Origin: Abyssibacter sp.
GTDB lineage: Bacteria > Pseudomonadota > Gammaproteobacteria > Nevskiales > OUC007
Assembly (NCBI GenBank): GCA_023146115.1
Contig: JAGLCS010000006.1
Location: 1-37,643, forward strand
DNA: 37,643 bases
Direction: 5' to 3'
Below are positions 37,449-37,643 of this stretch, piece by piece. Positions within the stretch are counted from its first letter, which is position 1, and the number at the start of each line of letters is the position of its first letter. The translations under genes and the position numbers were made by a program. Below the pieces are notes generated by a model, which had not been told where the DNA came from, ran no database searches, and worked only from the letters and a program-made list of their open reading frames with translations.

Positions 37449-37478
37449 TTAAAAAGGGGGCGGGTGGACCGCCCCCTT
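37449..37478 (-). terminator. Rho-independent terminator between the right-edge gene and the SLBB gene
   Basis: On the minus strand: stem AAGGGGGCGG / CCGCCCCCTT (37469-37478 and 37454-37463 on the plus map), five-base loop, then a run of T (A-tract 37451-37455 on plus). It ends transcripts of the right-edge gene and overlaps the leader of the SLBB gene, so read-through would lower expression of the rest. Confidence 0.75.
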
Positions 37479-37512
37479 CGCGACTACAAGACTGCGACGT
37501 CAGGCGGCCGGA

Positions 37513-37643
37513 TCAAGTCCCGCCGGTGCCGCCGGTGCCACCGGTGCCACCCGTACCGCCGGTGCCACCCGTGCCGCCGGTACCACCTGTGCCGCCCGTA
37601 CCGCCGGTGTCGTCGTCGTCGTCGTCGTCGTCGTCGCCGCTGC
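37513..37643 (-). CDS. Partial ORF: C-terminus with Asp run and (Thr-Gly-Gly)10 repeat (YjbE/GfcA-like by position)
   Basis: Only the last 42 or so codons are in the window; the 5' part is beyond the right edge. Reading leftward it gives Ser-Gly, nine Asp in a row, then ten Thr-Gly-Gly units and a final Thr before TGA (37513-37515). Third positions vary (GGC/GGT/ACC/ACG), so the triplets are kept at protein level rather than by simple slippage, whereas the Asp run is pure GAC. In E. coli yjbEFGH and gfc operons the first gene (YjbE/GfcA) is a small exported Gly/Thr-rich protein; place and composition match. A terminator follows at once. Confidence 0.6.
   Translation of the reverse strand, partial: SGDDDDDDDDDTGGTGGTGGTGGTGGTGGTGGTGGTGGTGGT

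Follow-up and report, generated by a model that had tools for sequence, protein, structure and literature searches.

The truncated gene and its export operon

The window analysed here is an entire contig (C149; 37643 bases) of a draft genome that comprises 192 contigs and is 94.5% complete. At its right edge a minus-strand ORF is cut by the contig end. The codons at 37641-37513 encode Ser-Gly, nine Asp, ten Thr-Gly-Gly units and a final Thr, which is followed by the stop codon TGA (37515-37513), and a terminator-like hairpin lies behind the gene, as the first-pass annotation had described. Tandem Repeats Finder reported both the Asp and the Thr-Gly-Gly array. Thr accounts for 11 of the last 31 residues and gives the protein a Thr-rich, low-complexity C-terminal tail like that of GfcA/YjbE. 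The ORF also occupies the GfcA/YjbE position, directly before homologues of gfcB, gfcC and gfcD on the same strand; the order on the minus strand is gfcA-type ORF, hairpin, gfcC, gfcD, gfcB, wzc and wza (Table 1). The window holds another low-complexity repeat, a Glu-Pro repeat in a SPOR-domain protein at 2266-3522 (minus strand). A second gfcB-gfcD pair (L088, contig C82) is present in the same genome; it is cut by a contig end, and our rule for GfcA-type genes found none beside it.

Table 1. Features at the right part of the window, with coordinates, strand and supporting evidence
Feature	Coordinates	Strand	Evidence and remarks
3' end of probable gfcA/yjbE-type gene, cut by contig end	37513..37643	-	sequence; synteny with G044
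Run of nine Asp, all GAC	37609..37635	-	repeat finder, codon count, comparison with relatives
(Thr-Gly-Gly)10-Thr tail up to the stop codon	37516..37608	-	translation; the ten Thr-Gly-Gly units are 37608-37519
Intrinsic-terminator-like hairpin and T5, between gfcA-type gene and gfcC	37451..37477	-	fold, rule score
GfcC-like SLBB protein	36502..37449	-	Pfam SLBB and Caps_syn_GfcC_C (20.5 bits, cut-off 20); start 37449 or 37419
YjbH/GfcD outer-membrane barrel protein	34298..36442	-	Pfam PF06082, E 2.8e-186
YjbF/GfcB lipoprotein	33603..34310	-	Pfam PF11102, E 5.7e-19
Wzc-type chain-length and kinase-like protein	31313..33667	-	Pfam Wzz, WZC_N, GNVR, AAA_31
Wza-type export protein	30138..31316	-	Pfam Poly_export, SLBB_2

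The nine Asp codons are all GAC, and the first-pass annotation had proposed that this run changes its length by slippage. Across eight genes of the window GAC makes up 131 of 204 Asp codons (64%), so that nine in a row have a probability of about 0.02 given this codon usage, whereas Thr and Gly are encoded in the tail by mixed codons, much like those of the same eight genes. Codon usage thus speaks weakly for slippage. Against it, 11 of the 17 Asp clusters of three to four residues listed in relatives are mixed GAC/GAT or all GAT; the remaining six consist of GAC alone, and one gene accounts for two of them. The pure GAC run fits a recent expansion by slippage without proving it.

A search with the GfcC-like protein covered 61 genomes, those of the order and nearer together with the own genome, and gave matches in 24 of them; many of these matches cover only part of a frame of about 1000 aa. 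A first search of the genome contigs collection with the same query found no relative. The best match outside the own genome, in genome G044 (locus L003), showed 59% identity over residues 19-315. G044 carries a complete gene of 231 aa directly upstream of gfcC, whose product begins with a signal peptide and a small domain and continues with a hydrophobic segment, DDD, a long Pro-Asp repeat (PD)n and a tail rich in Thr-Gly-Gly. This gene is followed by GGAGGGGGCGG, GTTC, CCGCCCCCTCC, one G and TTTTTTT, and then by gfcC. As the arrangement in the window is the same, we read the truncated ORF as the end of such a gene. Its missing 5' part was searched for in the own genome with the N-terminus of the G044 protein (best E 0.35, within an 821-aa frame) and with a profile of ten GfcA-type N-termini (best E 0.71), and was found with neither; a (GAC)7 pattern search of the own genome matched the window itself and nothing else.

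GfcA-type genes in related gfcD loci

To survey this gene position we analysed 120 gfcD loci. Forty are stretches upstream of gfcD (YjbH) matches in the window's order, selected by us among 69 match rows that cover 55 genomes; the other 80 are named loci, namely the best 80 of 573 relatives in the genome contigs collection. GfcA-type genes were called by a rule that demands a signal-like start, a second hydrophobic segment and a tail rich in T/G/S/N/P/D/Q/A. This rule and the hairpin rule used below were written after the 40 order loci had been read and hairpins had already been seen in some of them; the 80 named loci were fetched afresh later. A GfcA-type gene was found in at least 92 of the 120 loci (30 of the 40 chosen order loci and 62 of the named loci that represent the best 80 of 573 relatives), a lower bound since genes resembling members in L081, L160 and L174, and as second copies in L099 and L106, escape the rule. 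The 28 loci without such a gene by the rule include L088, the second gfcD locus of the own genome, and L066 and L067 from the same genus; some of them are short because a contig end cuts them. Named hosts with a GfcA-type gene include Pseudomonas, Variovorax, Pectobacterium, Brenneria, Aeromonas, Halomonas and Salinisphaera. Dropping identical proteins and two longer than 262 aa left 91 distinct genes, with some genomes represented in both sets.

GfcA-type genes thus occur in many species, and the Pfam YjbE model (PF11106) misses them in a sample of ten scanned proteins. E. coli YjbE is the only one of the ten to pass its cut-off and E. coli GfcA stays below; the Aeromonas protein comes near it with 24.8 of 27.9 bits, and weaker YjbE matches were seen in Aeromonas and Pectobacterium in the Pfam/NCBIfam scan. 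Other Pfam/NCBIfam matches of the relatives were below the curated cut-offs, many of them to repeat-rich proteins, and were taken as noise.

The tails of the family are composed mainly of Thr (48%) and Gly (31%) in the 14 residues before the last one. In 70 of the 91 tails, and in 51 of 68 after thinning of close relatives, the C-terminus is Thr followed by N, R, K, Q, P or H, a description of our own making and not a published criterion; the window protein ends in G-G-T and its G044 relative in T-G-S, both outside this pattern. Members from the window's order commonly carry an acidic cluster after the hydrophobic segment, but at least two acidic residues stand there in just 37 of the 91 relatives overall. 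For this reason the nine Asp appear as an enlarged form of a cluster common to many, not all, relatives, and the earlier suggestion that they bind calcium gained no support from the comparison.

Further features were noticed while reading these loci. Tandem gfcA pairs are present in L099, L101, L102 and L106 (genus g7, Salinisphaera). In L076, L077, L089, L091, L092 and L093 the gfcA-type gene is inverted relative to gfcD, with the hairpin still behind it. Long GfcA-type proteins (L070:3171-3500 and nine relatives) contain a small extra N-terminal domain (..LGxTVxEAVxAG..GxYVVTxxGAxAL..), after which Pro-rich repeats and the tail come in most of them. Upstream of gfcA, L070 encodes a second small, probably secreted protein (2694-3062) with a C-terminal motif like GGGGxPxDLxRPR, and proteins of this type stand in the same place in L071, L078-L082, L084, L085 and L104; two of them scanned against Pfam gave no match.

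The truncated ORF might instead be part of a bigger repeat protein without relation to GfcA, for instance a surface adhesin, as its visible part consists of only 42 low-complexity residues. Place, strand, tail and hairpin all match the G044 gene, however, and the frequency of GfcA-type genes in gfcD loci points the same way. We checked the relatives for a large adhesin, which the first-pass annotation had named as the finding that would overturn its reading, and saw none: the 91 distinct genes found by the rule encode proteins of 68-258 aa, and longer members seen by eye reach about 300 aa (L081, 293 aa counted from the signal-peptide Met; L174, 303 aa). An adhesin is accordingly very improbable. 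Synteny with G044 and the survey agree with the earlier assignment by position, and the truncated ORF is likely a gene of the GfcA/YjbE type.

The hairpin behind gfcA-type genes

The hairpin of the window consists of AGGGGGCGG, TCCAC and CCGCCCCCT (37477-37455) and runs into five T (37455-37451). A 76-nt RNA over it was predicted to fold with -31.7 kcal/mol (z -1.98), and 6 of 200 shuffled sequences reached an equal fold. By a rule of our own it is the top terminator-like site of the window, where scores of at least 27 occurred at two sites in 37.6 kb on both strands; a separate terminator-scan tool applied to 36000-37643 listed a different site and not this hairpin. The GC-rich stem, the T-run and a close, co-directional next gene are those of an operon-internal intrinsic terminator. 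The gfcC start lies 1 or 31 nt past the T-run, a distance too short for a promoter, so that gfcC and the genes after it should be expressed by read-through or from a promoter within gfcA. A scan of 36000-37643 for sigma-70-like consensus sites found none, which carries little weight as 0.2 were expected by chance.

Hairpins with a GC-rich stem and a following T-run were searched for from 9 nt before to 130 nt after the stop codon of the 91 distinct genes. They were found behind 76 of them (29 of 32 in the window's order; 47 of 59 in the named loci, which come from the best 80 of 573 relatives), as compared with a mean of 7.4 and a maximum of 14 in 20 dinucleotide shuffles. Close relatives share hairpins and the 91 genes are therefore not independent; after thinning, 57 of 68 genes retained one. 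The 76 hairpins fall into 19 groups with no common 8-mer, of which the two largest comprise 27 and 16 genes; a single copied sequence therefore does not account for all of them.

A hairpin was present behind 60 of the 69 genes with a co-directional neighbour downstream, against 35 of 505 other co-directional junctions, with crude gene calls at the junctions, controls from the named loci only and gfcA cases from both sets. Stretches before gfcD without an adjoining gfcA contained one in 2 of 79 cases; these stretches start at the tblastn match start, are longer than the gfcA stretch and partly cover the gfcD start. An uninterrupted stem of at least eight pairs was found behind 54 of the 91 gfcA-type genes and in 2 of the 79 stretches before gfcD. 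Eight of the 91 genes are inverted, a setting in which a hairpin marks the end of any gene, and 14 have no called neighbour downstream.

The 15 genes without a hairpin by the rule are seven halomonad genes, a Pseudoxanthomonas gene, four from other named loci and three tandem first copies. On folding, several of them form a stem whose T-run is poor or whose loop is longer, the latter being the case in Pseudoxanthomonas; L162 and L165 show practically none. In the tandem pairs the rule detected a hairpin behind the second copy in L101 and L102, and folding showed one behind the second copy in L099 and L106, whereas the first copy has a weak hairpin in L101 and none in L099, L102 and L106. Judged by these comparisons with controls, a hairpin after gfcA recurs across operons of this type and is not peculiar to one genome. 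The comparisons also speak well for the earlier proposal that more of the small protein would be made than of the export machinery.

The whole arrangement is probably best explained if the truncated ORF is the first visible gene of an exopolysaccharide or capsule export operon with an internal terminator. Most polymerases would stop at the hairpin and its T-run, giving a short, abundant gfcA message and the small protein in excess, while a minority would read through and yield less of the long message for the export genes; the hairpin may in addition form a 3' end that protects the short mRNA. The protein would most likely be secreted across the inner membrane by a signal peptide, with one Gly/Ala-rich hydrophobic helix, followed by an acidic cluster, represented here by nine Asp, and by a flexible tail of Thr and Gly. 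Beyond the cytoplasm this tail would serve the exported polymer as an accessory or acceptor. We infer partial termination, protein excess, membrane topology and the role of the tail from gene order and conservation. Published microarray data show yjbE and yjbF induced alike, by 5.74 and 5.67 in the available part of PMC3599342; these values describe induction, not abundance, and neither support nor exclude a difference in amount.

Two other roles of the hairpin were considered. It could protect the 3' end of a processed gfcA mRNA without terminating transcription, so that this mRNA outlives the rest; the accessible text of PMC8208086 ascribes a surplus of yjbE mRNA to stability, and in E. coli the stem of 10 bp in the yjbE gap is not followed by a canonical T-run. 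The T-run after the stem, the mark of intrinsic termination, is nevertheless present in the 76 relatives and in the window, and we regard protection alone as doubtful. The hairpin could also be a regulated attenuator, at which nearly all transcripts stop until an antitermination factor, RfaH-like or other, opens the operon. The sections of PMC3438125 available to us describe RfaH with the ops element in capsule clusters and predict a stem-loop attenuator in Klebsiella, between wzc and wbaP. The genome of the window, 94.5% complete, yielded one NusG-family match and hence no RfaH paralogue beside it. Searched for in an 8-base and a second form, the ops core was found in none of 83 stretches (up to 700 nt) upstream of the relatives' gfcA-type genes, against 6 of 83 in the reverse-strand control. 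The 8-base form is the one given in PMC3438125. With a single NusG-family match and no ops core upstream in relatives, control by RfaH appears unlikely here and was set aside as the leading explanation; a regulated attenuator seems improbable to us, although an antiterminator of another kind may act here. A surplus of gfcA mRNA brought about by the hairpin is the likely outcome, more readily through termination than through protection alone.

The small protein and comparison with known systems

The gfc genes are needed for the group 4 capsule phenotype of E. coli, and the role of GfcA is given as unknown, in the available parts of PMC8592465 and PMC11494523. Larson et al. 2021 (PMC8592465, in part) suggest that the Ser/Thr-rich GfcA might carry O-antigen modifications and be targeted to GfcD. 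A surplus of a secreted, Thr/Gly-tailed protein over the exporter fits an acceptor, an anchor or a guide.

Two FecR-domain proteins (Pfam PF04773; L171:17660-18481 and L176:14037-14840, both minus strand) are encoded in betaproteobacterial gfc loci that also hold gfcA. Their C-termini repeat the GfcA plan of a Gly/Ala hydrophobic segment, Asp and a Thr/Gly tail, and these fusions suggest that segment and tail may work as a unit. A plasmid search with one of the fusions found none. A bolder and rather unlikely extension is that the segment, the acidic cluster and the Thr/Gly tail with its preferred Thr-Asn/Arg end form a transferable surface module, which would act as polysaccharide acceptor or anchor or as a guide through GfcD, and whose surplus via an internal terminator would have been kept or remade in many beta- and gammaproteobacteria; on this view the two FecR-domain proteins carry the module as a transferable tag.

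An AlphaFold model of the betaproteobacterial GfcA from L171, computed with 20 relatives, reached a mean pLDDT of 55.8 and predicted helices at residues 3-18 and 43-60, the rest being without structure; it is too weak for more than these two helices. A resemblance of GfcD/YjbH, in its N-terminal half, to the amyloid exporter FapF is reported (available part of PMC9603273), so that GfcA could be a secreted fibre subunit. This idea was set aside; the weak L171 model predicts helix and not strand. A search of solved structures with the N-terminal profile returned mostly designed proteins over short stretches, which we attributed to composition.

The window gene is of an already known type, and the recurrent hairpin and the tail end are the part worth following. 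The accessible parts of PMC4448311, PMC10304320, PMC11641403, PMC5461412, PMC6941253 and PMC3853201 contain no mention of a terminator behind gfcA or yjbE, and neither the recurrent hairpin nor the preferred tail end is mentioned in the literature searched, which mostly leaves aside subscription papers (e.g. Ferrieres 2007). Both offer testable handles on GfcA, and the internal hairpin would be expected to determine how much GfcA is made relative to the exporter.

E. coli YjbE and GfcA resemble the window gene in being encoded by the first gene of a gfcBCD-type export operon. They share the plan of the relatives' GfcA-type proteins, with a signal-peptide-like start, one Ala/Gly/Val segment and a Thr-rich tail. 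The tail is a Thr run in E. coli, ending in Thr-Gln (YjbE) or Thr-Arg (GfcA), whereas that of the window is built of nine Asp and Thr-Gly-Gly units with a final Thr. The gene order is A-C-D-B in the window and A-B-C-D in E. coli. The 10-bp stem in the yjbE-yjbF gap is similar to the window hairpin, and the gfcA gap of E. coli K-12 shows only six uninterrupted pairs; the hairpins in both K-12 gaps lack the canonical T-run that is properly formed in the window. An IS1 insertion into the yjbE-yjbF gap is reported to be sufficient for resistance to sedimentation (PMC8117528).

Clostridial ABC importer operons, as described in the available part of PMC9045158, likewise have a hairpin behind the gene of the substrate-binding protein with the transport machinery downstream, in a different protein family and phylum; premature termination was studied there by experiment and is deduced here. 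Klebsiella capsule clusters share with the window a predicted attenuator inside a capsule operon (PMC3438125, in part). In Klebsiella it lies behind wzc and is described together with JUMPStart/ops and RfaH, whereas the window hairpin precedes the export genes, and searches here found neither an RfaH paralogue in the window's genome nor ops elements upstream of the relatives' gfcA-type genes.
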